Source: Abyssalbus ytuae
GTDB taxonomy: Bacteria > Bacteroidota > Bacteroidia > Flavobacteriales > Flavobacteriaceae
Assembly: GCF_022807975.1 (NCBI RefSeq)
Contig: NZ_CP094358.1
Coordinates: 3,658,001 to 3,722,000, forward strand
Length of the DNA stretch: 64,000 nt
Reading direction: 5' to 3'
Shown: positions 6,755-30,623 of the stretch, in pieces
Numbering within the stretch: the first letter of the stretch is position 1
Layout of the letters: each line of letters opens with the position of its first letter
Made by a program: the position numbers and the translations under genes
The notes under the pieces: model-generated
What the model was told of the DNA's origin: nothing
The model's database searches: none
Seen by the model: the letters and a program-made list of their open reading frames with translations, nothing else

Positions 6755-6775
6755 AGTTTTAATTTTTTAATTGAG

Positions 6776-7252
6776 TTAACATATATTTTTATTTGCAACA
6801 GTAACCGGTAAAAGCTTGGTAAAAAATTCTTTAGCTTGTTCCAGGTTATTTTTTGCATTATTGCTCAAACCATATTTTAAGTTCCAGGAATATCCCTGTA
6901 TTCCTATTATGAAGGCTCCAGGTCTATGATGGTAAAGGTTATTTGCCAGATACATTATTGTTTCCGGAGATAATTGATGACTGGTAAAAGCATGTTTATT
7001 TAGAGGAATACATTTTTTACAATAAAAACCTTTCTCTACGGTGCTTTTTACTGCATCAACAAATATTACCTTGTTATAATTGCAAAGAAGTTCGGCATCT
7101 TCTATCTGGAGTTGATATCTGTATTCCGCATCAATATCAATAAAATTAAGGCTTTTAACGTAATCAAGAAATAACCATCCCAGTGCATCATCCTGCCTTC
7201 CAATGTTTCCTATACCTATGACTAAAATCTTGTTATTATCTTCTTTTCTCAT
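6776..7252 (-). CDS. hoxW: [NiFe]-hydrogenase maturation endopeptidase (HoxW/HyaD/HycI family)
   Basis: 158 residues from ATG at 7252; the frame opens one codon earlier at TTG. The N-terminal ILVIGIGNIGRQDDALGW matches the GxGNxxxxDDxxG start of the hydrogenase maturation proteases (M52), which probe nickel in the finished large subunit and cut off its C-terminal tail. A central FVDAV, as in the family, supplies the usual second acidic metal ligand. The gene overlaps the end of hoxH by 17 bp, so it is translationally coupled to its presumed substrate. The symbol hoxW is assigned from context, because the enzyme is HoxFUYH-type. Confidence 0.88.
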   Translation of the reverse strand: MRKEDNNKILVIGIGNIGRQDDALGWLFLDYVKSLNFIDIDAEYRYQLQIEDAELLCNYNKVIFVDAVKSTVEKGFYCKKCIPLNKHAFTSHQLSPETIMYLANNLYHHRPGAFIIGIQGYSWNLKYGLSNNAKNNLEQAKEFFTKLLPVTVANKNIC

Positions 7253-8684
7253 CAATTAGCTCTCCATAATTATTATACAGCGAAACCTCTAAAGGCATTT
7301 GACCCAAATCGTGAGTAGCACAGCTTAAACACGGGTCATAAGCCCTGATAGCAACTTCTACCTGGTTTAACATGCTTTCTGTTATTTCCGGTTTTCCGTC
7401 CATTACGTGTTGTGCCACCCACTTAACTGCCTGATTCATTGGTTCATTGTTGTGAGTTGTTGAAACAATAAGGTTACAGCGGGTAATTCTGTCTTTTTCA
7501 TCTACTTTGTAGTGATGAATAAGAGTACCTCTCGGAGCTTCGATAATGCCTATTCCTTCGCCCCGTCTTTTTCCTCTTCTTAATAAATCGTTACTTAAAA
7601 TATCATTATCTTCTAACAATAATTTCATCATTTCGGCACAATGAAGGAGTTCAATTAGCCTTGCCCAGTGAGAATGCATGGTTTTATTGTTGGTTTTACC
7701 ATTGTTTTCTTTTACAAATTCCAGCCTTTCTTTCTCGGCAAGAGGAGTGGAAATACCATTACAAACATTTATTCGTGCAAGCGGACCCACCCGGTTCCAG
7801 CCTTTTTCGTTTCCAAGATGCTTCAGGTAGGGAAATTTTAAATAAGACCATCGCTCGACTCCTTCATAAAAATAGTTCTGATAGTCATCGCAACAAATGT
7901 CATGCAATGTTATGTTCCCTTCTGAATCGGTTGCCCTTAGGTTGCCGTCGTATAATTCCAAAAAACCGTTTTGTTTATTGACTAAACCCAGATGCCCGGA
8001 TGGATATTGAGCAAATTCATCAAGCCATTTCTTATGCTTTTTATGATATTCCTTTATATAAGCAATGATTTCAACAGACCATTCAATCATGGTATTAACT
8101 GATGGTATTTCTTTTCCGTTTAAAAAATAATCCCTTTCGGCAGTGGTTATTTTTTTATGTACTCCACCGGGAGTTGCCGAAATACCATGGATTCGTTTTC
8201 CGGCTATGGTTTTTATTATTTCCTGGCCAAACTTTCTCATTAAGATGCCTTTTTTGGCTAATTCGGGATGTTCCATAGCCACTCCTACAACATTTCTTTT
8301 GGCAGGGGCGGCATCATACCCAAATAGAAGATCTGGTGAAGCCAGATAGAAAAAATGCAGGGCATGAGACTGAAATATTTGCCCGAAATGAAGAAGTTTT
8401 CTTATTTTCTGGGCAGGTAACGACAGGTCTTCGGGGTTTAAGCCCACTATCTGATCAATTGCTTTTGCTGCAGCCAAATGGTGGCTTACCGGACATATCC
8501 CACATAATCTTTGCACAAGTACAGGAGCTTCCCAATATGGATGGCCTTGTATAAAACGTTCAAAACCCCTGAATTCTACTATGTGAAAAAATGAATCTTT
8601 TACATGGTTGTTTTCGTCCATATGAATGGTAACTTTACCATGGCCTTCAACTCTTGTTACCGGATCTATTACAATTTTGTTCAT
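7236..8684 (-). CDS. hoxH: NAD-linked [NiFe]-hydrogenase large subunit HoxH
   Basis: 482 residues from ATG at 8684 (MNKIVIDPVTRVEG); an in-frame TTG three codons upstream is less likely. It has both nickel-iron ligand motifs: RLCGICPVSHH (C61, C64) and DPCLSCATH near the C-terminus (C452, C455). Cutting after H458 by the HoxW-type protease would remove a 24-residue tail starting DLGQMP, typical of HoxH. The sequence type is that of the bidirectional NAD-reducing enzymes (group 3d-like). The gene starts 10 bp after the HoxU-HoxY fusion stop and overlaps the protease gene. The enzyme is expected in the cytoplasm; no transmembrane or Tat signals are seen in the subunits. Confidence 0.95.
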   Translation of the reverse strand: MNKIVIDPVTRVEGHGKVTIHMDENNHVKDSFFHIVEFRGFERFIQGHPYWEAPVLVQRLCGICPVSHHLAAAKAIDQIVGLNPEDLSLPAQKIRKLLHFGQIFQSHALHFFYLASPDLLFGYDAAPAKRNVVGVAMEHPELAKKGILMRKFGQEIIKTIAGKRIHGISATPGGVHKKITTAERDYFLNGKEIPSVNTMIEWSVEIIAYIKEYHKKHKKWLDEFAQYPSGHLGLVNKQNGFLELYDGNLRATDSEGNITLHDICCDDYQNYFYEGVERWSYLKFPYLKHLGNEKGWNRVGPLARINVCNGISTPLAEKERLEFVKENNGKTNNKTMHSHWARLIELLHCAEMMKLLLEDNDILSNDLLRRGKRRGEGIGIIEAPRGTLIHHYKVDEKDRITRCNLIVSTTHNNEPMNQAVKWVAQHVMDGKPEITESMLNQVEVAIRAYDPCLSCATHDLGQMPLEVSLYNNYGELIDEKRR

Positions 8685-8694
8685 TTTGAGCAAT

Positions 8695-9963
8695 TTAGTC
8701 GTAATTAAATTCTTGATGAAAAACAGGCTGTTCTTCCCCCAGCAAAATACTTTTTACAACTTTCCATATATGGTTGGCATTTGGTGGACAGCCGGGAATG
8801 AAATAGTCAATCTTAACAATTTCATTACACGGATAAACATTGTTCAAGAGTTTGGGTATATCTTCATGATTTGGTATAACATGTGCACCTATTTCACTGG
8901 TCATACTATTTATATAGGCTTCTTCAAGGCATTCTTTTAGTGGGATAAAATTTCTCATGGCAGGAATACCTCCCATTACAGCACACTCTCCCAAAGCGAT
9001 CAGAATATCACATTTTTTCCTGAATTCTTTTAAAACTTCTATATTTTCTGAGTTTGCACAACCTCCCTCTATAATTCCAACATCACATCTTTTGGTAAAC
9101 TTTTTAATATCTGTTAACGGTGATTTATTGAATTCAACCATTTCCAGTACATCCAGAATTTCGGTATCAATGTCTAACAATGACATATGGCACCCAAAAC
9201 AACCTGCAAGGGAAGTGGTAGCAACAATAAATTTGTTTTTGCCGTTGGGAGCTTGCTTTTTGTGATTTACCGGAGTTTTCTTATTTTTCCCTTTTGCATC
9301 ATACTTTCTTTCTCCAAAGGGCTCTTTATAAACCATTCCTTTTACCAGGATGGCGCCTACAGGGCACAATTGCATAGCGTGTAAAGCCTGGGCCTTGCTC
9401 ATTTTTTCTTCTTGTTCATAATCTACCTGTATATGTGTTTTTACACCTCTTTTTACAAATGAAAAAATATCTTTTCCGTCTTCCGATTTTATTTCTTCAA
9501 CACACCGCCTGCAGAGAATACATCTGTTAGATTCCAATACTAGTTGTTTAGGATTAAAATCTACGTTTTTATTGCTGTATACATGAGGAAACCGTGTGGC
9601 TGTTATTCCCATGTCATAGGCGAGGTTTTGCAAATCGCAGTTACCGCTTTTTTCACATGATGGGCAAAAATGGCTGCCTTCGGCAAAAAGCATTTCTATG
9701 ATGGCTTTTCGGGTATCTATCAACTCTGCGGTGTTTATTTTTATGTCCATTCCATCCTGTACTTTGGTAGTGCAACCGGTAGTCGATTTTCCGTTTACAT
9801 TTACGGTACATATCCTGCAAGTTCCCAATGAGTGCCGGGCATCCCTGTAATGACAAAGGGTAGGAATGTATATACCATGTTCTTTAGCGGCATTTACCAG
9901 GTTTTTTCCCAGTTGAACATGATATTCTTTATCATCTATCTTTATTTTAACCAGTTTATCCAT
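8695..9963 (-). CDS. hoxUY: Fused hydrogenase/diaphorase subunit: HoxU-like N-terminus and HoxY-like C-terminus
   Basis: 422 residues from ATG at 9963; an upstream in-frame TTG at 9975 is less likely. The first ~230 residues are a complete HoxU. They have a plant-type [2Fe-2S] domain (LCHYRDARHSLGTCRIC, later GCTT), the HFCPSCEKSGNC His/Cys cluster region and a ferredoxin-like CILCRRC...LCPVGAI set. A lysine- and asparagine-rich linker (about 220-245) follows. Then comes a complete HoxY small subunit with its proximal [4Fe-4S] cysteines in SLAGCFGCHMS, LGECAVMGG and IPGCPPNAN. In described HoxFUYH operons these are two separate genes. No stop or frame change occurs between the domains, so this is a genuine single reading frame. 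The stop of hoxF overlaps the start by 8 bp (ATGGATAA). Confidence 0.93.
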   Translation of the reverse strand: MDKLVKIKIDDKEYHVQLGKNLVNAAKEHGIYIPTLCHYRDARHSLGTCRICTVNVNGKSTTGCTTKVQDGMDIKINTAELIDTRKAIIEMLFAEGSHFCPSCEKSGNCDLQNLAYDMGITATRFPHVYSNKNVDFNPKQLVLESNRCILCRRCVEEIKSEDGKDIFSFVKRGVKTHIQVDYEQEEKMSKAQALHAMQLCPVGAILVKGMVYKEPFGERKYDAKGKNKKTPVNHKKQAPNGKNKFIVATTSLAGCFGCHMSLLDIDTEILDVLEMVEFNKSPLTDIKKFTKRCDVGIIEGGCANSENIEVLKEFRKKCDILIALGECAVMGGIPAMRNFIPLKECLEEAYINSMTSEIGAHVIPNHEDIPKLLNNVYPCNEIVKIDYFIPGCPPNANHIWKVVKSILLGEEQPVFHQEFNYD

Positions 9964-11779
9964 AAGTAGTTTCAATTTCGTTGATTATTTCATTGTAATC
10001 CTGTACAGCTTTTTCTAAATTGAAAGCTTTATTAATGTCACTTTCGGCCTGCAGGCATTTATTAAACTCATCCGGAAATTTTAATACGGCTGTTAAAAGG
10101 CAATTGGTAGAAGTTTTTCCGAGTCCACACCTGCTTGTTTGTTTAATGATATTACTCCACTGTTGTATTTGTTTCAAATCATTTTTATCAGCATGGTGCA
10201 AAAGGATTTTGTTAATTTGCCGGTTGAGAAGATAATTGCCGGTTCGGCAGGGTACACATATTCCGCATGATTCTGCAACGAAAAAGTCGGAGATATTTTT
10301 TATAATTGACAGTAAATCCCGTTCTTTTTTGAAAACCATAAACGAACCGCCGCTTCTTAAACCTACCGCACTCATTTTTTGTGCATACTCTATAGGGTCA
10401 TCAAAATTAAACTGAATATGTTCTGCCAATAAATTTTCTCCTGAAATTTCACGTTCAAAATCGGCCGGGGAGAGGCATTCTCCTGCAAAACCATTGTATA
10501 GGATAAAATAAGGATTTTCGGCTTCGATGAGGTCTAAAAAATCTTTTAATTTCATTCCCCATTCAATTTCATAAATTCCGGGTTTTTTGCAATCGCCGGA
10601 AACGCTCATAATTTTAGTTCCCGGTGTTACTTTTGTTCCTATAGACAGGTATTTTTCCAGACCCATCTCCATAATTCTGGGAACTGCACATAAAGTTTCA
10701 ACATTGTTTACTATTGTAGGCTTTCCTAAAAAACCTTTTTCTACGGGAAAAAATTCTTTGGTAGTGGGCTCACCTCTTTTTCCTTCCATAGAGTTTATAA
10801 GTGCAGTTTCTTCTCCGCATACATAAGCTCCTGCACCCATATGTATATAGATGTAAAAGTTAAAATCTTCAATTCCAAGGATATTTTTACCCAAAAAACC
10901 TTTTTGATTGTAATCTTCAATAATTTTTTCAAGTTTTTCTTTCAGGTAAAAATATTCGGCACGCAAATAAATAATTCCTACTGATGCTCCTACTGCATAT
11001 CCCGCTATAATCATACCTTCCAATAACAATTGGGGATGAGTGTTCATTAAAACCCTGTCTTTGAAAGTACCTGGTTCACCCTCGTCCGCATTACATATCA
11101 CATATTTTTGATCTGCTTCATTGTTTTTACACAATTGCCATTTTAATCCGGTGGGGAAAAAAGCTCCGCCTCTGCCGGAAAGTTTTGAATTTTTTACCAG
11201 CTCAATAATATTCCCGGGACTCATCTTTTTTAGAAAGTTCAACGATGAGCCTTCAGCATACGGATTAAAGAAAACTGTTTTACCGGTTTCCGGGGTATAC
11301 CGGATATTGTCCTGTGGTAATTGGGTAAGGGAATCAATATGAGCCCCGTTTTTTAACGAGGTCATTATATTTTTCACCTTTTCAGGGGTTAAGTTGGTAA
11401 AAGCCCTGAAGTTAATTAAAGCTGAGGTTTCCTGATCACTTAAGCCTATGCACGAAGTTTCAAATAATCCGAACATTTTATCCTGGCTTACATTCCCAAA
11501 GCTTACACCTGCTTCTTCCTCAAAGGCTTTTTTTACCGAATCAAAATCCTTAATTCCGGATACAATCGAGTTGTTTAAATAGATGGTATATTTTCCCGAA
11601 TGCTTTCTATGATAAAAGTGGTAAAATGAGACAACACCATCTAACTCGGTTTGAGAGATATTAAATTCCTTCGAAATTCTTGCAACATCATCACTGCTTA
11701 TAAACCTCCGTTTTTTTTGAATATCCCACAATACATTCATGATAGAAGTTTTACATGCGGAATTATTTAAACTTGCCAT
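9956..11779 (-). CDS. hoxF: NAD-reducing hydrogenase diaphorase subunit HoxF with fused HoxE-like N-terminal domain
   Basis: 607 residues from ATG at 11779 (MASLNNSACK); the frame extends to a GTG at 11818, but that would place the start almost on top of the predicted promoter. Residues 1 to about 140 resemble the NuoE/HoxE thioredoxin-like domain, but only one of the four usual cluster cysteines remains (ETSCIGLSDQ), so it probably holds no [2Fe-2S]. The rest is NuoF-like: SGRGGAFFPTGLKW (NADH), CNADEGEPGTFKDR (FMN) and a [4Fe-4S] set in ESCGICVPCRTG plus TSRCGLGKT. It oxidises or reduces NAD(H) for the hydrogenase. It is the first structural gene of the hox operon and is preceded by a CRP/FNR-like site. 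Confidence 0.93.
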   Translation of the reverse strand: MASLNNSACKTSIMNVLWDIQKKRRFISSDDVARISKEFNISQTELDGVVSFYHFYHRKHSGKYTIYLNNSIVSGIKDFDSVKKAFEEEAGVSFGNVSQDKMFGLFETSCIGLSDQETSALINFRAFTNLTPEKVKNIMTSLKNGAHIDSLTQLPQDNIRYTPETGKTVFFNPYAEGSSLNFLKKMSPGNIIELVKNSKLSGRGGAFFPTGLKWQLCKNNEADQKYVICNADEGEPGTFKDRVLMNTHPQLLLEGMIIAGYAVGASVGIIYLRAEYFYLKEKLEKIIEDYNQKGFLGKNILGIEDFNFYIYIHMGAGAYVCGEETALINSMEGKRGEPTTKEFFPVEKGFLGKPTIVNNVETLCAVPRIMEMGLEKYLSIGTKVTPGTKIMSVSGDCKKPGIYEIEWGMKLKDFLDLIEAENPYFILYNGFAGECLSPADFEREISGENLLAEHIQFNFDDPIEYAQKMSAVGLRSGGSFMVFKKERDLLSIIKNISDFFVAESCGICVPCRTGNYLLNRQINKILLHHADKNDLKQIQQWSNIIKQTSRCGLGKTSTNCLLTAVLKFPDEFNKCLQAESDINKAFNLEKAVQDYNEIINEIETTYG

Positions 11780-11806
11780 AATAAAAAAATATGATGTACA
11801 CTGTAA

Positions 11807-11850
11807 TAAATGTAACACACACTAAAAAACTATTTTATGACATTTATCAT
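11807..11850 (-). promoter_or_regulatory. Predicted hoxF promoter with CRP/FNR-like operator
   Basis: On the minus strand a -7-like box TACATTTA (11814 to 11807) is close to the Bacteroidota TAnnTTTG consensus. Upstream lies ATGACATTTATCAT (11837-11850), an ATGA-N6-TCAT inverted repeat. Its centre is 29.5 bp from the start of the box, so it would sit near -41.5, the class II activator position. The same arrangement recurs at hypA. Confidence 0.5.
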
Positions 11851-11883
11851 TTTATGTATTAATTATGGTTGATTTTTAGGAGG

Positions 11884-12225
11884 TTATGAAACTTTTAAAG
11901 ATTTAATCTTTAATTCTCTCCCTCTGAGAATGGTTTTTTGTATGCTGTGGCAGCCGGGGCACGGATCGTATATATTCTCTATTTCAAATACCCTGTCACA
12001 TTCTGTACATTTTGCTTCTGCTTTAATAATGTTGATTTTCTTTGAAGCTTTTTCAAGGGCGGTATTTTTTACAGCCGCAGGCCAAACAAAATTAAGGGCA
12101 TCCGTTTCAATACCGGATAAGTCCCCTATTTCCAATTCGATTTCTTCAATATAGGCAGCATTGGTTTTTGCCAGTTCTTCTTCGGCAATTTTAATAATAC
12201 TCGTCACTATAGATAATTCATGCAT
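11884..12225 (-). CDS. hypA: Hydrogenase nickel incorporation protein HypA
   Basis: 113 residues with the invariant MHE start whose His2 binds nickel. The zinc finger is complete (C73, C76, C89, C92 in KCTECD and DPCPGC). HypA receives nickel and passes it to the large subunit together with HypB. The gene stands alone upstream of hoxF with a 104-bp gap that contains the hoxF promoter, and it is divergent from hypF across 115 bp. Length and motifs are normal for the family. Confidence 0.95.
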   Translation of the reverse strand: MHELSIVTSIIKIAEEELAKTNAAYIEEIELEIGDLSGIETDALNFVWPAAVKNTALEKASKKINIIKAEAKCTECDRVFEIENIYDPCPGCHSIQKTILRGRELKIKSLKVS

Positions 12226-12246
12226 ATGATGAGTGTTTGATTACCA

Positions 12247-12320
12247 CAATATTATAAATTACGGTTTCTGTTATATATGATGAAAGTCATTTAATAATCC
12301 AAAAATCAATTGCACTTTTA
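12247..12320. promoter_or_regulatory. Shared operator/promoter region between hypA and hypF
   Basis: ATGATGAAAGTCAT (12277-12290) is an ATGA-N6-TCAT inverted repeat lying about 51 bp from both start codons. On the minus strand a -7-like box TAATATTG (12254 to 12247) starts 29.5 bp from its centre, exactly as at hoxF. On the plus strand the equivalent position (12313-12320, CACTTTTA) is a weaker match. It probably binds a CRP/FNR-family activator controlling both directions. Confidence 0.45.
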
Positions 12321-12340
12321 ATTGTCATAAACATAACAGG

Positions 12341-14626
12341 ATGCATTGCGATGTGTTACAAAAATCTTACAGGATAATTATTACAGGAAGGGTACAAGGT
12401 GTAGGTTTCAGGCCTTATGTACATTCGGTGGCAGGTAACTACGGTCTTATGGGGTCGGTATCTAATAATGAACAAGGGGTAATTATTTATGTATCCGGTG
12501 AAAAACAAGATATCTTCCGTTTTTATAAGAAAATAATAAGTAATCCTCCGGTTGTTTCAAAAATTGGCAGTCATCATATAGAAGAAATAAATTTTAAAAA
12601 ATACGATAATTTTAAAATTATTCCTTCTAATAAAAAAAATAAACTTAATGTACAACTAACTCCCGATTTTGCTATCTGTGATGAATGTAAAAAAGAAATT
12701 TCAGATCCCTCCGACAGGCGTTATTTATATCCGTTTACAACCTGTGTAAATTGTGGGCCCAGGTGGTCAATAACCCAAACTTTTCCCTTTGAGAGGGAAA
12801 ATACCTCCATTCATGAATTTGAAATGTGCGAAGATTGTTATGAAGAATATACCAACAAGTTAAATCGCAGATATCATTCTCAAACCAATTCATGTAAAAA
12901 ATGTGGTGTAAAATTAACTTTAGCCAATAAAAATGGTAAATTAATAAAGTCCCATTACAAACAAACGTTCAAATACATTGGAGGATTAATTTCAGGTGGC
13001 AAAATTATAGCTATAAAAAACAGCGGAGGTTATTTGTTATGTTGTGATGCTACCAATCCTGTAGTAGTTAACAGGTTAAGAATAAATAAGAACCGGCCCA
13101 ATAAACCTTTTGCCGTTTTATATCCCTCATTAAAATTATTGAAGGATGATGTAGGGATAAATGAAACGCAGGAAAAAGCTTTATTATCTGCAGAGAGGCC
13201 AGTTGTAATAGTTACAGCTAAAAATATCAAAGATAAGCTGGCCTCTAAGGAGATAGCGCCGGGTTTAAATCAACTGGGGGTGATGCTTCCGTATACGGCT
13301 ATTTTACAATTACTGGCAAATGAACTAACGGTTCCGGTTGTTGCAACCAGCGGAAATATTCACGGAAGCCCCATAATAAGCGATAAAAAAGAAGCCCAAA
13401 GTAATTTAAGCGAAGTAGCCGATTATTTTTTGCATCATAATTTAAAAATTGCCAATCCACAGGATGATTCGGTAATAAAGTATACTGGTAAATTTAATCA
13501 TGAAATTTTGTTGAGACGATCACGTGGTTATGCTCCAAATTATTCTGTTAAACCTGTAAAAACAGATGAAAAAATCATGGCTTTAGGAGCTGATTTAAAA
13601 AGTACTGTAGCTTTTTTGCCAAATGATTATTTATACATCAGCCAGTATTTGGGAAATTTAAATAACTATGATGTTTATAAAAGGTTTACTGAAACTTCAT
13701 CAAAATTTATCTCTCTTTTTGAACAGGAACCTGAAGTAATTCTCTCTGACAAGCATCCTGATTATTTAAGCACTCAATATGCCAATGAATTGTGCCAGCA
13801 TTTAGGAATAAAAAACAGGCAGATACAACATCATAAAGCCCATTTTGCAGCGGTGCTGGGCGAAAATGAATTATTTAATTCAAACGATCCGGTATTGGGT
13901 GTGATATGGGATGGTACCGGATATGGGGATGACGGACAAATATGGGGAGGAGAATTTTTTAAGTATGAAAAGAATAAAATGGGGAGAATTACTCATTTTG
14001 ATTATTTTGATTGGCTGGCCGGTGATAAGATGGCCAGGGAACCTAAACTTTCAATGTTGGCTTTGGCAAATATGGATATGTATCCTATTGTTGAAGAAAA
14101 ATTTTCTAAAGAAAAACAAATAATATATCAGCTGTTAAAAGAAGAGAATTCACTTAAAACATCTTCTGTCGGGAGGCTTTTTGACGCAGTTGCATCGCTA
14201 CTTAATATTTGTGATTATAATACATACGAAGGGGAAGCTGCAATGCTTCTGGAAAATAAATTGCAGGATTATAAACTAGAGGAATATAAAATATATTGTG
14301 CAGGGTTAATTGACAATATAATCCCAACAAAATCAATCTTTAAAAAAATTGTCAGGGATCATAAAAAAGGCATGTCCGAACAACAAATTATAGGAAACTT
14401 TTTCTATACCCTTGCCAATTATGTATTTCAAATAGCAAACTTTTATAAAATAAAAAAAATAGCTCTTGGCGGCGGAGTCTTTCAAAATGCTGTCCTCATA
14501 GATATGATCCGTGAAATTGGAGAAGAAGGTTACGATTTGTTCTTCAATAAAAATTTATCTCCTAATGACGAAAATATATCATACGGACAGTTAATGTATT
14601 ACCTGAATTGCAGGAATGATAATTGA
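12341..14626 (+). CDS. hypF: Carbamoyltransferase HypF
   Basis: 761 residues. HypF turns carbamoyl phosphate into the thiocarbamoyl group on HypE, the source of the cyanide ligands of the [NiFe] site. Domains in order: an acylphosphatase-like domain (GRVQGVGFRPYVH, about 14-26), two zinc-finger-like Cys pairs (CDECKKE, CVNCGPRW, CEDCYEE, CKKCG, about 110-190), a YrdC-like domain (about 205-390, with SGNIHGSP), and a Kae1/HypF C-terminal domain with QHHKAHFAAVLGEN and LGGGVFQN. Length is normal. It is the first gene of the divergent hypFDE operon, and its stop overlaps the frame leading into hypD. Confidence 0.96.
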   Translation: MHCDVLQKSYRIIITGRVQGVGFRPYVHSVAGNYGLMGSVSNNEQGVIIYVSGEKQDIFRFYKKIISNPPVVSKIGSHHIEEINFKKYDNFKIIPSNKKNKLNVQLTPDFAICDECKKEISDPSDRRYLYPFTTCVNCGPRWSITQTFPFERENTSIHEFEMCEDCYEEYTNKLNRRYHSQTNSCKKCGVKLTLANKNGKLIKSHYKQTFKYIGGLISGGKIIAIKNSGGYLLCCDATNPVVVNRLRINKNRPNKPFAVLYPSLKLLKDDVGINETQEKALLSAERPVVIVTAKNIKDKLASKEIAPGLNQLGVMLPYTAILQLLANELTVPVVATSGNIHGSPIISDKKEAQSNLSEVADYFLHHNLKIANPQDDSVIKYTGKFNHEILLRRSRGYAPNYSVKPVKTDEKIMALGADLKSTVAFLPNDYLYISQYLGNLNNYDVYKRFTETSSKFISLFEQEPEVILSDKHPDYLSTQYANELCQHLGIKNRQIQHHKAHFAAVLGENELFNSNDPVLGVIWDGTGYGDDGQIWGGEFFKYEKNKMGRITHFDYFDWLAGDKMAREPKLSMLALANMDMYPIVEEKFSKEKQIIYQLLKEENSLKTSSVGRLFDAVASLLNICDYNTYEGEAAMLLENKLQDYKLEEYKIYCAGLIDNIIPTKSIFKKIVRDHKKGMSEQQIIGNFFYTLANYVFQIANFYKIKKIALGGGVFQNAVLIDMIREIGEEGYDLFFNKNLSPNDENISYGQLMYYLNCRNDN

Positions 14627-14628
14627 AA

Positions 14629-15714
14629 ATGAAATACTTAAATGAATATAGAAATTTAGAAGCAACAAACCGTTGGTTAAATCTTATTCATAAAACTATC
14701 ACAAGAAACTGGAATATTATGGAGGTTTGTGGCGGACAAACGCATAGTCTTGTTCGCAACGGTATTTTAGAATTGCTTCCTGAAAAGGTAAGGATGATAC
14801 ATGGTCCCGGTTGCCCCGTGTGCGTTACACCTTTAAACCTTATTGATAAGGCGGTAGAATTACTGGAAAATAATGTGATTGTATGTTCTTTTGGCGATAT
14901 GGTACGTGTACCGGGTAGCAAAAAAAGTTTAATGCAGGCCAAAGCTAACGGAGGTGATTTAAGAATCTTATATTCCCCGTTGGAAGCCGTAGACGTAGCC
15001 AGGGAAAATCCTCAAAAACAAGTGGTGTTTTTTGCCGTCGGGTTTGAAACTACTGCACCTGCAAATGCGTTGTCAGTATTACAGGCAAAAGAAAAAGGGT
15101 TAAAAAATTACTCCCTTTTGGTTTCTCATGTGCTTGTACCACCCGCTATGGAAGCTATTTTAAAGGATGAATTGTGTAAAGTAAATGCGTTTTTAGGAGC
15201 AGGCCATGTATGTACAATAATGGGATTAGGGGAATATTACCCCCTCTCTGCAAAATATAAAATTCCGATTATTATAACCGGTTTTGAGCCTGTAGACCTT
15301 GTACAAGGAATATATATGGCCGTTAACCAGCTTGAAAAAGGAATTTTTGAAGTAGAAAATCAATATGCAAGAGTAGTAAAAAAAGAAGGAAACCTGGCAG
15401 CCAAAAATCTCATAAATATAGTTTTTAGAGTTGGATCCCGTCAATGGCGTGGTATTGGAGAAATTCCGGACAGCGGATATGTTTTACAGGATGAGTTCAA
15501 CGAGTTTGATGCCGAATTGAAATTTGGTATCCGTCACATACAAGTACCCGAAAATAAAACATGCATTGCCGGGGAAATTTTAAAAGGTATAAAAAAGCCT
15601 TATGAATGTAACCAGTTTGGAAAAAATTGTTCACCTGTAAATCCGTTGGGCGCGCCCATGGTATCATCTGAAGGGGCTTGTGCTGCTTACTACCATTTTA
15701 CAAACACTGTTTAA
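14629..15714 (+). CDS. hypD: Hydrogenase iron-cofactor assembly protein HypD
   Basis: 361 residues from ATG at 14629; a TTG two codons upstream overlaps the hypF stop. HypD is the [4Fe-4S] scaffold on which, with HypC, the Fe(CN)2CO unit is built. Signature motifs are present: EVCGGQTHSLVR, HGPGCPVCVTP (redox CxxC), GFETTAP and a C-terminal region with the remaining cysteines (NQFGKNCSPV, SEGACAAYY). It sits 2 bp after hypF and 2 bp before hypE, so translation is probably coupled. Confidence 0.95.
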   Translation: MKYLNEYRNLEATNRWLNLIHKTITRNWNIMEVCGGQTHSLVRNGILELLPEKVRMIHGPGCPVCVTPLNLIDKAVELLENNVIVCSFGDMVRVPGSKKSLMQAKANGGDLRILYSPLEAVDVARENPQKQVVFFAVGFETTAPANALSVLQAKEKGLKNYSLLVSHVLVPPAMEAILKDELCKVNAFLGAGHVCTIMGLGEYYPLSAKYKIPIIITGFEPVDLVQGIYMAVNQLEKGIFEVENQYARVVKKEGNLAAKNLINIVFRVGSRQWRGIGEIPDSGYVLQDEFNEFDAELKFGIRHIQVPENKTCIAGEILKGIKKPYECNQFGKNCSPVNPLGAPMVSSEGACAAYYHFTNTV

Positions 15715-15716
15715 TT

Positions 15717-16739
15717 ATGAATAACAGGGCCGAAAATAAAACAATAAACTTAAGTCATGGAAGTGGCGGTTTAATGATGAGGAAATTATTAAACGATGTC
15801 ATCTTTAAAGCATTTGACAATAAATATTTAAACCGGAAACATGATGGGGCACTGGTAAAATTGACGGGGGAAATAGCCGTTTCCACCGATAGTTTTGTTA
15901 TTTCCCCGATATTTTTTAAAGGTGGGGATATTGGTGAGCTGGCAGTCAACGGGACGGTTAATGACATAGCTATGTGCGGGGCCATTCCCCGATTTTTATC
16001 TTTAAGTTTTATAGTAGAAGAAGGTTTGGGGTTAGAAAGTTTAATCAGAATAGTAAACTCTGTAAAAACTGCAGCTAAAAATAGTGGTGTACGGATTATA
16101 ACAGGTGATACCAAAGTAGTGGAGAAGGGAAAAGGCGATAAAATTTTTATTAATACCACAGGGATTGGGGAGGTACATCCAAAAGCCAATATATCTTCTG
16201 AAAAGATAAAACCGGGCGATAAAATAATAGTAAGCGGATGTATAGCCCAACACGGTATGGCAATTATGTCTCAAAGAAAAGGTATGGAATTTGAAGCCGA
16301 TATAAAAAGTGATACCACCAATTTAAATTTTTTGGTAAAAGATATTTTAGATGCTTTCGGATCTAAAATACATTTACTAAGGGATCCTACAAGGGGAGGT
16401 TTAGCAGCTGTATTACATGAAATAGCTGAAGATACTCAAACCGGTATTACCATTTATGAAAACAAATTACCACTGGAAAAACAGGTGGCTGCAGCATGCG
16501 AAATTTTAGGTATTGACCCCATCTTTGTAGCTAACGAAGGTATATTTGTTGCAATAGTAGATTCTGATATTACAGATGATTTGGTTGAACTGATGATTCA
16601 AAAAGAAAAAGGAAAAAATACTGTATGCATTGGAGAAATTTCACAAGATCATCCGGGAAAAGTTGTGATGCACAGTTCAATAGGAGGCAAACGTATAGTA
16701 AGTCCGCCAATTGGAGAACAACTACCCCGTATTTGCTAA
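15717..16739 (+). CDS. hypE: Hydrogenase cyanide-forming dehydratase HypE
   Basis: 340 residues from ATG at 15717 (MNNRAENKTINLSHGSGG); the frame extends back into hypD from a TTG, which is unlikely to be used. It has the PurM-like ATP-binding fold (LSHGSGGLMM, STDSFVISP, NGTVNDIAMCG, LRDPTRGGLA). It ends in PRIC, the family's C-terminal Cys that is carbamoylated by HypF and dehydrated to the thiocyanate. Last gene of hypFDE. It converges on the nickel transporter gene with only 4 bp between stops. Confidence 0.95.
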   Translation: MNNRAENKTINLSHGSGGLMMRKLLNDVIFKAFDNKYLNRKHDGALVKLTGEIAVSTDSFVISPIFFKGGDIGELAVNGTVNDIAMCGAIPRFLSLSFIVEEGLGLESLIRIVNSVKTAAKNSGVRIITGDTKVVEKGKGDKIFINTTGIGEVHPKANISSEKIKPGDKIIVSGCIAQHGMAIMSQRKGMEFEADIKSDTTNLNFLVKDILDAFGSKIHLLRDPTRGGLAAVLHEIAEDTQTGITIYENKLPLEKQVAAACEILGIDPIFVANEGIFVAIVDSDITDDLVELMIQKEKGKNTVCIGEISQDHPGKVVMHSSIGGKRIVSPPIGEQLPRIC

Positions 16740-16743
16740 AGTT

Positions 16744-17463
16744 TTAGGTAACTGCCAGCCAGTAAACACCAACCACAATCGCAAAAAGTCCCCCGGAAAA
16801 ACGAATACCGTAAAACAGGTTTTCATTATGGCTGTTTTGAGATACATCTGAAACTTTGCCGATTAAAAAAGTAAAAGAAGTCATGGCTATAATTATCCCT
16901 ATGGCAAAACCAACTATGTATAAAACAGCATCTGAAATTTTTTGAAAACTTAAAACAGGAAGGAATAAAATAAAATGAGCAATTCCGGCCAGGCCATGTA
17001 TTATCCCTATAGACAGGGAAGCCATACCACTTTGCTTCAGATTTTTTTCATGAGTATGATTATGATGGTTACCGTGGGAATGGTCATGTGGATGACTATG
17101 AATTACAGGGTTATTATCCGGATGAAAATGAAGATGTTTATGCCCTGTCTTCTTTTCAATAAAAATTTTATAAAATACCCAGGCCCCTATACCAATTAAT
17201 ATAATTCCCACTAACTTTTCACTGTAATGGGATATATTTTCAACCGGGATGAGTTCTTTAAAAAAAAGGAATAATAAACCTATAAAGAGCATTCCTATTA
17301 AATGGCCGGTTCCCCATAACAGGCCTATTTTCCAGCCTTTTCTATTAGATTTTATCGCAAAAGGAATAACAGCAGCCAAATGATCAGGGCCGGTTATTAC
17401 ATGCAGTATTGAAGCCAGAATACCTGCAAAAAGGGGAAAATCCAAATAATTACTGATATCCAT
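16744..17463 (-). CDS. UreH/HupE-type nickel transporter with histidine-rich loop
   Basis: 239 residues, about six hydrophobic segments. The first helix carries HVITGPDHLAAVIPF, like the HxxTGPDHLAA motif of UreH-type nickel permeases, and a later helix carries HGLAGIAHF. A cytoplasm- or periplasm-facing loop (about residues 112-139) is packed with His (HKHLHFHPD, HSHPHDHSHGNHHNHTH), suited to nickel capture. The position beside hypE supports nickel supply for the hydrogenase; no urease genes are present here. It could also be called a NicO/RcnA-like exporter from the His-rich loop alone, but the context favours uptake. Confidence 0.8.
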   Translation of the reverse strand: MDISNYLDFPLFAGILASILHVITGPDHLAAVIPFAIKSNRKGWKIGLLWGTGHLIGMLFIGLLFLFFKELIPVENISHYSEKLVGIILIGIGAWVFYKIFIEKKTGHKHLHFHPDNNPVIHSHPHDHSHGNHHNHTHEKNLKQSGMASLSIGIIHGLAGIAHFILFLPVLSFQKISDAVLYIVGFAIGIIIAMTSFTFLIGKVSDVSQNSHNENLFYGIRFSGGLFAIVVGVYWLAVT

Positions 17464-24333: not shown

Positions 24334-26247
24334 ATGAGTAATATTATAGCAGAAAGAGTTTATGATTTTTTAAAAAACTTTCCTCCCTTCAGTTTTTTGG
24401 AAAGGCAGGAATTACTGGAAATTTCCGGCAAAGTAAAAGTAATATACCTTGAAAAAAATGAATTTGTGTTTAAAGAAGGCGAAACTACACATAATCATTT
24501 TTATATAGTAAAAGACGGGGCCATAGGTATTTTAAGAGAGCAAAATACCATATTGGTAGACCAATGTGATGAAGGAGATATTTTTGGTATCAGGGCATTA
24601 ATAAGGAAAGGAGATTATTTTTTAAGTGCACAGGCTATTGAAGAAAGTATTGTTTACAGTATTTCTTCAGAGTTGCTGGAAAGAATTATTGAAACCAACA
24701 ATGAGGCGAATAAGTTTCTTATTACCAGTTTTGCAACAAATACCCGTAATCCGTATTCCAATGAAAATAAAGGAGTGCTGTTTACCTATGCCACCGATTT
24801 AAAACCGGGCCAGTTTGATTTTACCGAAATTCAATCCGTACAATATTCCAAACATCCTGTTACCTGTTCTTTAACATCTACCATACAACAGGCAGCCACT
24901 ATTATGGCCCGAAACAGGGTAGGTTCTATTGTAATTGAAAAAAATAAAAAACCATACGGAATAATAACGGATAAAGATTTAAGGTTAAAGGTAGCCACGG
25001 GTAATTATAAAATAGAAGATAATGTACAACAAATAATGTCGCGGCCGGTAATTACTTACCCGCCTGATATTACCATTGCCGAAGCCCAGATAGCTATGAT
25101 TCAGCACGGCATCACCCATTTATGTATTACCGAAGATGGCACGCCCGGGTCCATGCTAACAGGGGTACTGTCGGAGCATGATATATTGGTGGTTCATGGA
25201 AATAATCCTTCGGTATTGATTAAAGAAATTAAAAGAAGTGATACCACCGAAAGTTTAAAATATATACGAAATAAAGCGCAACAGCTTTTAAAAGGGTACC
25301 TGGAACAAAACATTCCCGTGTTTTTTATTTCAAAAATAATATCAAAAATAAATGAGGCGGTTACCGAAAAAGTTATTCGGTTTTCGGTTAACGAAATGGA
25401 AAGTCCGCCGCCGGTTACATTTGGCTGGTTATCACTTGGGAGCCAGGGAAGAAAAGAACAATTGCTTTTTACCGATCAGGATAATGCCCTGGTGTTTGAA
25501 AATGTAGCAGAAGAAAACTATAAGGAAACAAAAAAATATTTTTTAACACTATCTAAAAAAGTAACCGATAAGCTTCATGTGATAGGTTTTGAGTACTGTC
25601 CTGCAAATATGATGGCCAGTAATCCAAAATGGTGCCTTTCGGTTAATGAATGGAAAAAACAATTTAATAACTGGATTGTAAAGCCGGATGAAAAAAAGAT
25701 AATGCTAAGTACCATTTTCTTTGATTATGATATAGTGTATGGTAACAAAAAATTGATTGATGAAATGTCTGACAGCATTTTTACTTCTATAGGCACTTAC
25801 ACTATTTTTCTTAACTTTTTAGGGCTTAATGCATTAAAAAATCCTCCTCCGCTGGGTTTTTTCAGGCAGTTTCTGGTGGAAGAAACCGGGGAGCATAAAG
25901 ACCAGTTTGATATAAAGGCCCGTGCCTTAATGCCCCTGGTAGATGCGGCCAGGTTACTTATTTTGTCCCACAGTATAAAAAATTATAACAATACCATTTT
26001 ACGTTTTGAAAAACTCATTGAAATTGAACCCCAAAACCGGGATTTGTATATTTCCTGTATTAATGCATTTAAAATATTATTGCGTTTCAGGACGGTTCAC
26101 GGTTTACAGCAGGAAAGCTCCGGCAGGTTTATTGACTTGAATTCTTTGGGCAAATCAGACAGGTTGAAACTGAAAAGTTGTTTCAAGCCCATTAAAGAAA
26201 TACAGGAGCTTATACGTGTAAGATTTCAATTATCACATTTAATGTAA
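24334..26247 (+). CDS. cNMP-binding/CBS/DUF294 nucleotidyltransferase-like signalling protein
   Basis: 637 residues from ATG at 24334; a GTG two codons upstream is less likely. Domains in order: a cyclic-nucleotide-binding-like domain (about 15-130, KNEFVFKEGETTHNHFYIVKDG), a CBS pair (about 170-310, TIQQAATIMARNRVGSIVIEKNKKPYGIITDKDLR), the DUF294 nucleotidyltransferase-like domain (about 375-460, GSQGRKEQLLFTDQDNALVF with the GS...DxD-type core), and the DUF294 C-terminal domain. This family is repeatedly found with an adjacent DnaQ-like exonuclease and with acetate genes (acs, actP-type symporter), as here. The exact reaction is unknown; signal-controlled nucleotidyl transfer is an inference. 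The stop overlaps the next start by one base. Confidence 0.9.
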   Translation: MSNIIAERVYDFLKNFPPFSFLERQELLEISGKVKVIYLEKNEFVFKEGETTHNHFYIVKDGAIGILREQNTILVDQCDEGDIFGIRALIRKGDYFLSAQAIEESIVYSISSELLERIIETNNEANKFLITSFATNTRNPYSNENKGVLFTYATDLKPGQFDFTEIQSVQYSKHPVTCSLTSTIQQAATIMARNRVGSIVIEKNKKPYGIITDKDLRLKVATGNYKIEDNVQQIMSRPVITYPPDITIAEAQIAMIQHGITHLCITEDGTPGSMLTGVLSEHDILVVHGNNPSVLIKEIKRSDTTESLKYIRNKAQQLLKGYLEQNIPVFFISKIISKINEAVTEKVIRFSVNEMESPPPVTFGWLSLGSQGRKEQLLFTDQDNALVFENVAEENYKETKKYFLTLSKKVTDKLHVIGFEYCPANMMASNPKWCLSVNEWKKQFNNWIVKPDEKKIMLSTIFFDYDIVYGNKKLIDEMSDSIFTSIGTYTIFLNFLGLNALKNPPPLGFFRQFLVEETGEHKDQFDIKARALMPLVDAARLLILSHSIKNYNNTILRFEKLIEIEPQNRDLYISCINAFKILLRFRTVHGLQQESSGRFIDLNSLGKSDRLKLKSCFKPIKEIQELIRVRFQLSHLM

Positions 26248-26912
26248 TGATACACTGGTTTAAACGTAAAGAATACCCCGATTTTTGGCATCGTTACAAA
26301 AGTCATTTCAAATCCTTTAATAAACCGGATTTGGAAAATACCCGTTTTATAGTTTTTGATACTGAAACCACCGGGTTGAATGTTGTAAATGACAGGATTT
26401 TATCAATAGGGGCAGTAGCGGTAAAAAATAACTTTATTGATGTATCCGACAGTTTTGAAATATACCTGAACCAGGAAAAGTATAATGCAACAACCGTAGA
26501 AATTCACGGGATATTAAAAGAAGGAAAACTCATAAAGGCCGATGAAGGAGATGCTGTTGTAAAGTTTCTGGAGTATATAAAAGAATCTGTTTTGGTGGCC
26601 CATCATACAGCTTTTGATATGGCCATGATAAATGAAGCATTAAAAAGAATGAAACTGCCAAAACTTAAAAATAGGAGTATTGATACGGGTTATTTGTTTA
26701 AAAAATTAAACAATGACACTACCGAAAATAAACATTATGCCCTGGATGAATTGTGTGTAAATTTTAATATACCCATGCATGACAGGCATACTGCAACGGG
26801 CGATGCTTTTATTACCGCTTTGTTATTTTTAAAATTAAAAAAACAATTGTTGGCTAAAGGGTTTACTTTACACGATTTTTTTATAAAATCTCCCAAGCGG
26901 GGACTTTTGTAA
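26247..26912 (+). CDS. DnaQ/DEDDh-type 3'-5' exonuclease
   Basis: 221 residues with all exonuclease motifs: FDTETTGLN (Exo I, Asp and Glu), HHTAFDMAMINEAL (Exo II) and HDRHTATGDAFIT (Exo III, DEDDh His and Asp). It resembles the polymerase III epsilon exonuclease but is encoded with the DUF294 protein (ATGA overlap), so it is likely a dedicated partner rather than the replicative subunit. It probably cleaves nucleic acid or a nucleotide product of the signalling module; substrate unproven. Confidence 0.92.
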   Translation: MIHWFKRKEYPDFWHRYKSHFKSFNKPDLENTRFIVFDTETTGLNVVNDRILSIGAVAVKNNFIDVSDSFEIYLNQEKYNATTVEIHGILKEGKLIKADEGDAVVKFLEYIKESVLVAHHTAFDMAMINEALKRMKLPKLKNRSIDTGYLFKKLNNDTTENKHYALDELCVNFNIPMHDRHTATGDAFITALLFLKLKKQLLAKGFTLHDFFIKSPKRGLL

Positions 26913-26998
26913 TGTAAAAGTTAAAGAAGTATTTCACTTTAAGGAAATATTATTTCAGAAGGATATTTTTTATACCTTAATGCCATTAATTATTAATA

Positions 26999-27802
26999 AT
27001 GCCAAAACTTTTAAACTTAATAAGCCTTAGACATATAATTAAAGGGGGGAGTTCAAAACCTGTTTCAATTCAGGCAGAAGATGAAAACGGAAAAGTTTCT
27101 TCATATGTGCTTAAGTTATTTAAGAAAAAACATGTAGATCAAAATTATTCATCGGCAAAAGAAATTTTAGGAGTAGAATTAGCCAAAGATTTTGATTTGC
27201 CTGTTTCAGATTATGGAATTATTAATTTCGACCACAAATATTTAAAATCATTTTTCGATGATAAATATATATCTGAGTTAGATATAGGGTATAAGTTTTG
27301 TAGTGAATTAAAAGAGGGTATGGTTATATATGACAGTAGTGGCACTAACAGATTCTTAAAAAACTATGATTTAGAAAATGTTTTTGGCTTTGATAATATT
27401 ATTCTTAATACAGACAGGGGTGGGTATAGATATAAACCTAATTTACTTGTTGGCGATGATGATTTTTTACTAATTGACCATGAAACAATATTACCACATT
27501 ATACCTCCGGAAGTATAGAGGAACAGATTAATTATAAAAATAAGTTTAATAGTTATATTTACACAAATCACATTTTTTATAATGACTTAAAGAAAAAACG
27601 AAAAAAAGGGATAATGTTTGATGAAACTATAATGCATTTGTCAAATTTTGATTTAAAGAAAATTGATAATATATTCGCAGACTTTGATAAATTTAACATT
27701 ACTTGTGGTAATAAAAACAAATGTTATTCTTATTTTAAATGGTTGAAAGACAATATAAATGATGTTTATAATACTTTGAATAATAGACTTTTTAATGGAT
27801 AA
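26999..27802 (+). CDS. HipA-like protein kinase (HipA_2-type), first gene of a two-gene cassette
   Basis: 267 residues. It lacks the N-terminal HipA domain and resembles the short HipA-family kinases. A probable N-lobe lysine lies in YVLKLFKKKH (about 37-46). FGFDNIILNTDRGGYRYKPNLLV (about 130-152) looks like the catalytic loop with Asp and Asn, and FLLIDHE (about 157-163) like the metal-binding Asp. HipA kinases phosphorylate proteins such as GltX and cause growth arrest. No HipB-like HTH antitoxin is adjacent. Instead the stop overlaps the next gene by 8 bp (ATGGATAA). The gene is unusually AT-rich: rows 27241-27300 and 27661-27720 are each 13/60 G+C, against 24/60 in a row of acs. It sits inside an acetate gene cluster, suggesting insertion by transfer. 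Confidence 0.72.
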   Translation: MPKLLNLISLRHIIKGGSSKPVSIQAEDENGKVSSYVLKLFKKKHVDQNYSSAKEILGVELAKDFDLPVSDYGIINFDHKYLKSFFDDKYISELDIGYKFCSELKEGMVIYDSSGTNRFLKNYDLENVFGFDNIILNTDRGGYRYKPNLLVGDDDFLLIDHETILPHYTSGSIEEQINYKNKFNSYIYTNHIFYNDLKKKRKKGIMFDETIMHLSNFDLKKIDNIFADFDKFNITCGNKNKCYSYFKWLKDNINDVYNTLNNRLFNG

Positions 27803-28640
27803 AATATATACATATAGCCTGCTTAAGTATAAGCATTCATCGATTCTTGGTGAGTGTTTAAATATTGGTTTACTGGTATATTTTAATGATAACAAAAAAT
27901 TGAAGTTTATATACCCTGATTCTCTTTCCCGAATAAAGAATAGTTATGTAGGGGTAAATGAAAAAACAATTAGAAACTATTTAAAACAAATAGATTATAA
28001 AGCAACATTGTTTAATAAAAAATTTGACAGCCTTATTTCGGAAATAATCGGATATAACTTCAAGGAGTTTATTGACAATTATATATTGCCACCTGACGGG
28101 AGTTCATTGCAGTTTGAAAATAGTGTTGTAAATTTTCAAAGAAATTATTCCGAAGACAAAATAGTAGAACAACTTAAGCATCTTTATCATTTTGAATCTC
28201 AAGAAAGTAGAGTTGACAAAGAATATGAAATCGGAAAGACTTTTTATGGATATATAAAAAACAGGGTGAATGAAAATTATTTTTATAGAGATTATGAGAT
28301 AAAAAACCCAACCGGTGCCAAATTTAAATTTAAATACGCTTGGCAAAATGGCAGTTTAAACCTTGTTAAACCTTTAAATTTCGATTTATCTGAACAAAGG
28401 CACATAGCAAGAAAGGCTCATGAAAATTTTGGTTTATTTGTAGATTTAGAACCTGTTGCCGAGCAGAAAGATTTAAAATATGACCTGTTAGTTATAAAAC
28501 CAACAAAAAAGAGTCTTTATAAAGAATATGACCACTCCATAAAACTTTTGGAAAGGGTAGAAAGGACTAATATTATTGAAGAATCTGAGATTAAAAAATA
28601 TTCTGAAAATTTAATCAAAACATTATCAAATAAAAAGTAA
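27795..28640 (+). CDS. DUF3037-family protein, partner of the HipA-like kinase
   Basis: 281 residues. The opening YTYSLLKYKHSSILGECLNIGLLVYF matches my recollection of DUF3037 proteins, which begin with a Y-x-V-L-R-Y-x-P...E-x-x-N-I-G-V-xx pattern and are often encoded beside short HipA-like kinases. No signal peptide, membrane segment or catalytic motif is evident, so it is expected in the cytoplasm. Overlap with the kinase gene implies fixed stoichiometry; it may be the antitoxin or the substrate. AT-rich like its partner. Ends 76 bp before the convergent acs. Confidence 0.68.
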   Translation: MDKIYTYSLLKYKHSSILGECLNIGLLVYFNDNKKLKFIYPDSLSRIKNSYVGVNEKTIRNYLKQIDYKATLFNKKFDSLISEIIGYNFKEFIDNYILPPDGSSLQFENSVVNFQRNYSEDKIVEQLKHLYHFESQESRVDKEYEIGKTFYGYIKNRVNENYFYRDYEIKNPTGAKFKFKYAWQNGSLNLVKPLNFDLSEQRHIARKAHENFGLFVDLEPVAEQKDLKYDLLVIKPTKKSLYKEYDHSIKLLERVERTNIIEESEIKKYSENLIKTLSNKK

Positions 28641-28667
28641 AGAATTAATAATGCTAGCTTTATAAAA

Positions 28668-28697
28668 AAAGAAACTGCCATTTACGGCAGCCTCTTT
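28668..28697 (-). terminator. Terminator for acs (possibly bidirectional)
   Basis: On the minus strand, a 12-bp stem with two G-T wobbles (arms AAAGAGGCTGCC and GGCAGTTTCTTT), a 6-base loop and a following T run, 19 bp after the acs stop. It lies between convergent genes and could also end the HipA-like/DUF3037 transcript. Confidence 0.8.
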
Positions 28698-28715
28698 AAA
28701 ATTAAATAAATTTAC

Positions 28716-30623
28716 TTACAAAGCATTATCCATTATTTCTTTCACTACCTCCGGATTGAGCAGGGTAGAAGTGTCGCCTAAATTACCGGTATCTTTACTG
28801 GCAATTTTTCGCAGTATTCTACGCATAATTTTACCTGACCTGGTTTTTGGCAGTCCTGAAGTAAACTGAATTTTATCAAGTTTGGCAATTGGGCCAATAT
28901 GCTCGGTAATAATCTGGTTAATTTCCTTACGAAGATTATCCTGATTCCTGGTTTCGCCTGTTTCTTTTAAAATAACATAACCGTACAGGGCATTACCTTT
29001 TACGTCGTGAGGGAAACCTACAATTGCCGATTCTGCAACTGCCGGATGTTCGTTAACAGCATCTTCTATTGGTGCAGTACCCAAATTATGGCCGGAGACA
29101 ATAATTACATCGTCAACACGGCCTGTAATTCTGTAATACCCGACTTCATCCCTTAAAGCCCCGTCTCCTGTAAAATATTTATTTTCAAAAGCCGAAAAAT
29201 AGGTGTCCTTATATCGTTGATGATTTCCCCAAATTGTTCTGGCTATAGAGGGCCATGGAAACTTTATACACAATCTTCCATCTACCTGGTTACCTTTAAT
29301 CTCCTGGCCGTTTTCGTCCATTAAAGCCGGTTGAATGCCGGGCAGGGGTAAAGAGGCGTATGTGGGAATGGTGGGGGTAGCATAAGGAATAGGAGAGATC
29401 ATGATGCCTCCTGTTTCGGTTTGCCACCAGGTATCTACAATGGGGCTTTTCTTTTTACCCACATTAATGTTATACCAGTGCCATGCCTCTTCATTAATAG
29501 GCTCTCCTACTGATCCCATTACTTTTAATGAGGACAGATCATATTTTTCAACATATTCCAGATTTTCTTTTGCCAAAGCCCTTATGGCAGTGGGAGCTGT
29601 ATAAAACTGGTTTACTTTGTATTTTTCTACTATCTGCCAGAATCTCCCGAAATCAGGATAGCTGGGCACCCCTTCAAACATTAACGTGGTAGCACCGTTG
29701 GCCAGCGGGCCGTATAAAATATAGCTATGGCCTGTTATCCAGCCAATATCTGCAGTACACCAGTAAATATCTTCATCTTTATACTGAAAAACATTTTTAA
29801 AAGTATAGGCCGTATATACCATATATCCGCCGGTACTATGCACCATACCTTTAGGCATTCCGGTAGAGCCCGATGTATATAAAATAAATAAGGGGTCTTC
29901 AGAATCCATTATTTCTGCAGGACAATAATCGTTTGCCGCATCAAGTAAAGGTTGCAACCACTTATCACGGTTTTGGGTCATATTTATTTCGGAATTAATC
30001 CGTTTTGCAACCAGTACTGTTTCTACACAGGGGCATTTTTCAAGGCTTTCATCTACTATACCTTTCAGGTCTATGGTTTTTGAACCTCTGTATGAACCAT
30101 CAGAGGTAATCACCATCTTACAGTTACTGTCGTTTATCCTTGTAGCCAGGGCGCTGGAAGAAAACCCGGCAAAGACTACCGAGTGTATGGCACCAATTCG
30201 TGCACATGCCAGTACTGAAACGGCGAGTTCCGGTATCATTGGTAAATAAATACAAACTCTGTCACCTTTTTTTACCCCTTGATCCTTTAGAACATTAGCC
30301 ATTTTACACACACGCTCGTGCAAGTCTTTAAAAGTTATGTATTGTTCTTTTTCCTCGGGGTCGTTGGGTTCAAATATGATGGCAGTTTTGTTGCCATGTG
30401 TGGGCAAATGCCTGTCAATACAATTTTCTGTTATGTTAAGTTTAGCACCTTCAAACCATTTTATTTCGGGTTTTGTAAAATCCCAGCTAAGTACTTTGTC
30501 CCATTTTTTTCTCCACATAAAATGTTCTTCAGCTACTTCTTCCCAGAAGTTTTCAGGATCCCTGACAGATTTTCGGTAGATTTGAAAATATTCTTCCAGG
30601 TGCTTAATATGATAATTACTCAT
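28716..30623 (-). CDS. acs: Acetyl-CoA synthetase (AMP-forming)
   Basis: 635 residues, normal length. Activates acetate to acetyl-CoA through acetyl-AMP. Motifs: YTSGSTGMPKGMVH (P-loop-like A3), DTWWQTETGG (A5), TGDGALRDEVGYYRITGRVDDVI (A7-A8) and a C-terminal KTRSGKIMRRILRK holding the lysine that is acetylated in other Acs enzymes. Supplies acetyl-CoA for the aceBA shunt in this region. Probably its own transcription unit, with a terminator downstream and a small membrane protein gene upstream. Confidence 0.97.
   Translation of the reverse strand: MSNYHIKHLEEYFQIYRKSVRDPENFWEEVAEEHFMWRKKWDKVLSWDFTKPEIKWFEGAKLNITENCIDRHLPTHGNKTAIIFEPNDPEEKEQYITFKDLHERVCKMANVLKDQGVKKGDRVCIYLPMIPELAVSVLACARIGAIHSVVFAGFSSSALATRINDSNCKMVITSDGSYRGSKTIDLKGIVDESLEKCPCVETVLVAKRINSEINMTQNRDKWLQPLLDAANDYCPAEIMDSEDPLFILYTSGSTGMPKGMVHSTGGYMVYTAYTFKNVFQYKDEDIYWCTADIGWITGHSYILYGPLANGATTLMFEGVPSYPDFGRFWQIVEKYKVNQFYTAPTAIRALAKENLEYVEKYDLSSLKVMGSVGEPINEEAWHWYNINVGKKKSPIVDTWWQTETGGIMISPIPYATPTIPTYASLPLPGIQPALMDENGQEIKGNQVDGRLCIKFPWPSIARTIWGNHQRYKDTYFSAFENKYFTGDGALRDEVGYYRITGRVDDVIIVSGHNLGTAPIEDAVNEHPAVAESAIVGFPHDVKGNALYGYVILKETGETRNQDNLRKEINQIITEHIGPIAKLDKIQFTSGLPKTRSGKIMRRILRKIASKDTGNLGDTSTLLNPEVVKEIMDNAL

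Follow-up and report, generated by a model that had tools for sequence, protein, structure and literature searches.

A two-gene unit in the genome of Abyssalbus ytuae is probably an antiphage cassette of PDC-M66 type that was acquired horizontally and works like DS-6/HipAD. It lies in the 64,000-nt stretch of DNA analysed here (hereafter, the window) and consists of a gene for a HipA-like kinase of PDC-M66A type (267 aa; 26999–27802, plus strand), followed by a gene for a DUF3037-type partner of PDC-M66B type (281 aa; 27795–28640, plus strand). Direct reading shows that the two plus-strand frames overlap by 8 nt (27795–27802, ATGGATAA). According to Pfam, the pair is bounded on one side by a DUF294 gene and a gene for a DnaQ-type 3′–5′ exonuclease (26247–26912, plus strand; RNase_T), and on the other by the acetyl-CoA synthetase gene acs (28716–30623, minus strand; ACAS_N and AMP-binding). 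The exonuclease gene and acs are convergent host genes outside the cassette, separated from it by 86 and 75 nt, respectively. No HipB-like gene was found beside the pair among the window ORFs of at least 80 aa, and the genome, a single contig of 4.37 Mb, contains one match to the kinase. Elsewhere in the window (5918–17463), Pfam identifies a cluster for a nickel-dependent hydrogenase that includes NADH-dehydrogenase-like subunits; its hyp-type maturation genes were assigned by eye.

The pair stands out by its base composition. Over its 1642 nt the G+C content is 0.267, against 0.356 in the remaining window, and the kinase (0.257) and partner (0.275) genes are the two lowest-G+C ORFs among the 35 mechanically called ORFs of at least 180 aa. 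This contrast is sharpest with acs (0.405) and weaker with the exonuclease gene (0.333); the DUF294 gene has a value of 0.355. Out of 1248 sliding segments of 1642 bp, four were at least as AT-rich as the pair, three of them overlapping it and one starting at position 56001. We found no direct repeats flanking the cassette, and the inverted repeats there (25 of 39 shown) are AT-rich and were read as chance occurrences. Promoter-like sites were near the mean of shuffled sequences (17 versus 13.7), and terminator-like sites were above it (3 versus 0.6). An earlier note, made from the letters of this DNA, had described the 8-bp overlap, the low G+C relative to the neighbours, the position between the DUF294/exonuclease pair and acs, and the missing HipB partner, and the analysis agreed with it on all of these points.

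For comparison we took 16 stretches of DNA surrounding the best-matching exonuclease relatives in other genomes; a 17th stretch represents the second exonuclease–DUF294 copy of the A. ytuae genome itself. DUF294 lies beside the exonuclease gene in all 16 loci from other genomes. The acs gene is convergent with the exonuclease gene in six of them, is found beyond DUF294 in one, and is absent from the stretch in nine, some of which terminate at contig ends. Neither a kinase nor a partner match at E 1e-8 was present in any of the 17 stretches. At the six convergent junctions the stop-to-stop distances are 50, 163, 85, and 86 nt in four empty cases and 1439 and 1022 nt in the other two, compared with 1803 nt in the window (26913–28715), a segment that we presume to have been acquired. 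The two wider junctions each contain a GH16-type gene (L066:5594–6775 in the 1439-nt gap, and L070:6765–7337, apparently incomplete, in the 1022-nt gap). The exonuclease–acs junction thus looks like a site of cargo coming and going and may be a recurrent landing site. The insertion proposed in the earlier note is upheld, since a stable syntenic presence across the family was contradicted by the 16 loci without a copy, the rarity of relatives in the family (see below), and the unusual composition. The alternative that the pair is a conserved component of the acetate cluster was ruled out by its absence from the relatives' loci and its rarity in the family.

Both proteins were identified by profile comparison. 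The kinase matched Pfam HipA_2 with 49.3 bits (cut-off 27; 5.2e-13) and PADLOC PDC-M66A over residues 8–226 of 267 (3.8e-24). The classical HipA Pfam domains had no match in the kinase, HipA_2 and a sub-threshold MORN_2 being the sole matches at E ≤ 1. When the window kinase was aligned with 11 others, all 12 of them matching PDC-M66A, the invariant positions were G17, P21, K39, E55, A62, D132, N137, D139, R140, N148, and D160-H161-E162. Such conservation would be expected of an active kinase; K39 is absent from the invariant list of a second alignment of four rows that included L106. The DxxxxxxxN-like loop pointed out previously is present, with a spacing of eight residues between D139 and N148 instead of the seven first given. 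Two additional residues between these positions are shared by the window kinase and L100, L101, L104, and L105, and are missing in L086 and the others. The AlphaFold2 model of the kinase had a mean pLDDT of 37, and our reading of the active site comes from sequence conservation. The comparison of the kinase profile with sequences of solved structures was weak, the best match (0.031) being a phosphatidylinositol 4-kinase type 2.

The partner matched PADLOC PDC-M66B over residues 3–279 of 281 (7.8e-31). Of the two Pfam families named in the earlier note, HipA_2 was confirmed in the kinase; the DUF3037 match of the partner (17.2 bits, 0.0059) is below the cut-off of 22.6, while its PDC-M66B match spans nearly the whole protein. 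Among 13 aligned partners, window included, DUF3037 was matched by 12 at E up to 10 and PDC-M66B by all 13. DUF1829 was not among the 18 families listed for these 13 partners at E up to 10, a search in which a distant form could be missed.

The original report of DS-6/HipAD is said to be that of Brenes & Laub 2025. A study on DS-6 (renamed HipAD), with Brenes & Laub 2025 and Payne 2024 among its references, reports that defence was lost when a predicted catalytic residue of the kinase was mutated, predicts contacts between kinase and partner and between partner and DNA, and describes DS-6B with DUF3037 and DUF1829 (PMC13092281). In the Retron-Sda1 locus, according to another report, the HipA kinase is needed for defence against Bas51 and deletion of DUF3037 is toxic; PADLOC names this two-gene system PDC-M66 (PMC12548924). 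In agreement with this family (PADLOC-DB 2.0.0), both window proteins match its models and their genes are adjacent on one strand with the 8-nt overlap; however, the window pair is divergent, scoring 83.3 bits (kinase) and about 105.5 bits (partner), whereas the best PDC-M66B match among the phylum genomes reached 359.3 bits. The window pair also has the two-gene kinase and DUF3037 architecture of the Retron-Sda1 pair, which in contrast belongs to a retron locus of type III-A1; among the neighbours of the window pair we saw no reverse transcriptase. With DS-6/HipAD, compared here by its published description, it has in common a HipA-related kinase with its residues kept and the lack of HipB; its partner may be of the same DUF3037 type, the Pfam match being below the cut-off. 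Unlike that system, the window partner gave no DUF1829 match, and we therefore did not file the pair as HipAD in the strict sense. Classical HipBA is related by the Pfam family name of the kinase (HipA_2), but the window has no HipB-like partner and the partner present matches DUF3037 alone. Judged by these sequence matches, the window pair is a divergent example of an already described defence pair. The earlier suggestion of a toxin–antitoxin or antiphage pair agrees with the experiments published on related pairs; its description as undescribed does not stand, being ruled out by the PDC-M66A and PDC-M66B matches and by the published DS-6/HipAD and Retron-Sda1 pairs.

Pairs with the same two domains in the same order as the window pair, HipA_2 and DUF3037, but with a short partner that has about 127 aa and no C-terminal half, were present in all five short-type loci that we opened (L087–L091). 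Matches to the short-type partner were found in 22 of 23 genomes of the genus g57, among the genomes listed, and this short pair may be vertically kept. The shared order and domains, and the matches among the listed g57 genomes, would suit a housekeeping or regulatory kinase pair of this sort in the window as well, a reading that we consider very unlikely in view of the kinase tree and of the rarity of the window pair in its own family. The tree was built from 20 kinases, leaving out L100 because its kinase frame is interrupted. In it the window kinase groups with L104 and L105, relatives from its own family (98/96), and these three together with L101 and L086 form a set of five with long partners (100/100), which stands apart from six short-type kinases (L094 being short-type by its presumed partner). 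The kinase of a Hymenobacter plasmid pair (L102), in which the annotation splits the partner region into two frames, also groups with the long-type pairs.

The long-type pair is rare and scattered. With the partner as a single query, only the genome of A. ytuae itself gave a match among 60 relatives, and partner relatives were found in five of 397 family genomes, own included, three of them full-length. Besides the window, the full-length ones were in G701 (47%) and G607 (41%), and two more were weak partial matches in frames of 573–575 aa. The PDC-M66B profile matched 78 of 395 phylum genomes, including three missed by the single query (G001, G040, and G053). Eight of these 78, the A. ytuae genome among them, span 262 or more of the 281 profile positions; in the remainder coverage is mainly N-terminal and most have open frames of about 131 aa. 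Partner relatives were also found on three of 72,556 plasmid records, two of which match 80% or more of the length of the partner. The 50,697 phage records gave no match to it, and the partner of L081 likewise had none in phage records. Searches of genome contigs confirmed no relative with the partner and two with the kinase, and a search of viral contigs with the kinase alignment returned two loci, L106 among them.

In the nearest relatives (L100, L104, L105, and L101) the pairs lie in other neighbourhoods, and each is more AT-rich than the remainder of its own locus. Rarity, composition, empty junctions, and the locations of the relatives together indicate that the window pair is a compact cassette, probably acquired horizontally. 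In L105 (7717–12625), the pair is oriented the other way round; on one side it has a FixS-type gene, and on the other an ORF of 129 aa with a gene for a heavy-metal P-type ATPase behind it (Pfam). The closest relative by kinase identity (63%) is L100, from an uncultured Flavobacteriaceae bacterium, where the interruption of the kinase frame (L100:7992–8785) reflects either real decay or an assembly error. This interrupted frame is what would speak for the window pair being a defence cassette in decay, a reading that we consider very unlikely, as both window frames are complete, the kinase residues are conserved, and the partner has its full length.

With respect to defence context, we counted 14 loci with long-type partners (the window, L080–L086, L100, L101, L103, L104, L105, and L106; L102, L107, L092, and L093 were left aside). 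Five of the 14 have type I restriction genes close to the pair (L080, L081, L084, L106, and L103), and in L103 the start of an HsdM-like ORF is almost the same, by eye, as that in L106. In L086, an array that we read as CRISPR (repeats of 36 nt, period of 66 nt) starts about 4.6 kb beyond the pair. No clear defence partner was seen in the remaining long-type loci, where the scan covered a minority of the ORFs. In the window, a PADLOC scan of ten proteins revealed no defence island around the pair. Five of the ten matched PADLOC at E ≤ 0.001, namely the exonuclease, a coiled-coil ORF (0.00096), and proteins with HTH, receiver, and histidine-kinase domains, and we read these five as generic domains.

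HipA-type kinases have a role in persistence. The window pair could accordingly be an ordinary toxin–antitoxin pair serving its own persistence or stress dormancy, without a phage role in this host; its place among host metabolic genes, where we recognised no further defence system next to it, is compatible with this, and the scattered sites of the relatives would also suit a selfish module. This explanation appears unlikely to us, given that several related pairs are in type I restriction–modification loci and that related pairs were shown to defend (PMC12548924, PMC13092281). The window kinase shares 17–21% identity with the restriction–modification-associated kinases, and this low identity together with the low bit score of the partner means that its function may have drifted.

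We therefore return to the antiphage cassette, in which the kinase would most likely be a toxin held in check by the DUF3037 partner, by analogy with the characterised pairs. Free HipA-like kinase would stop growth; the partner would bind and restrain it, and the 8-nt overlap would serve to coordinate the two. Infection would presumably release or activate the kinase, which might then phosphorylate a cell component, leading to dormancy or abortive infection and blocking phage multiplication. We infer that this copy is active; the target and trigger sketched here are likewise presumed.

A possible clue to the trigger is the predicted fold of the partner. Comparison of its profile with sequences of solved structures was weak (best 0.004 over 40 residues). 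The AlphaFold2 model, built on four sequences, had a mean pLDDT of 76 and a pTM of 0.49, with two of five predictions near 76 and two under 39, and predicted an alpha/beta C-terminal domain from about residue 138–139. With this model, Foldseek gave no match reaching E 0.001. In a second structural comparison, residues from about 138 to 281 aligned mostly with nucleases, the best being BstEII (9ibq; Z 9.3, rmsd 3.9 over 134), slightly above the Z of 7 to 8 that is usual when a model lacks clear relatives. Cdn1, Can2, Card1, PspGI, and others were also aligned, and further down the list other folds appeared, such as ATP citrate lyase. We take BstEII and these other nucleases to share the PD-(D/E)XK fold. 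The positions conserved in the C-terminal half of the partner are F179, N185, P193, K207, G213, and L232, and these do not make up a D...(D/E)xK triad. The model thus hints that this half may be a PD-(D/E)XK nuclease fold lacking catalytic residues, a possibly new detail, and nucleic-acid binding by such a dead fold is conceivable. More tentatively, and with a good deal of doubt, we propose that in this clade the C-terminal half of the antitoxin is a dead nuclease fold that would sense or bind phage or host nucleic acid and thereby free the kinase, a pseudo-nuclease sensor coupled to a growth-arresting kinase.

If this pseudo-nuclease reading were true, it would give a hint at how such kinases are triggered. 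More broadly, the A. ytuae pair adds a divergent clade, whose compact two-gene units are found in unrelated neighbourhoods, to a kind of defence pair that was validated recently.
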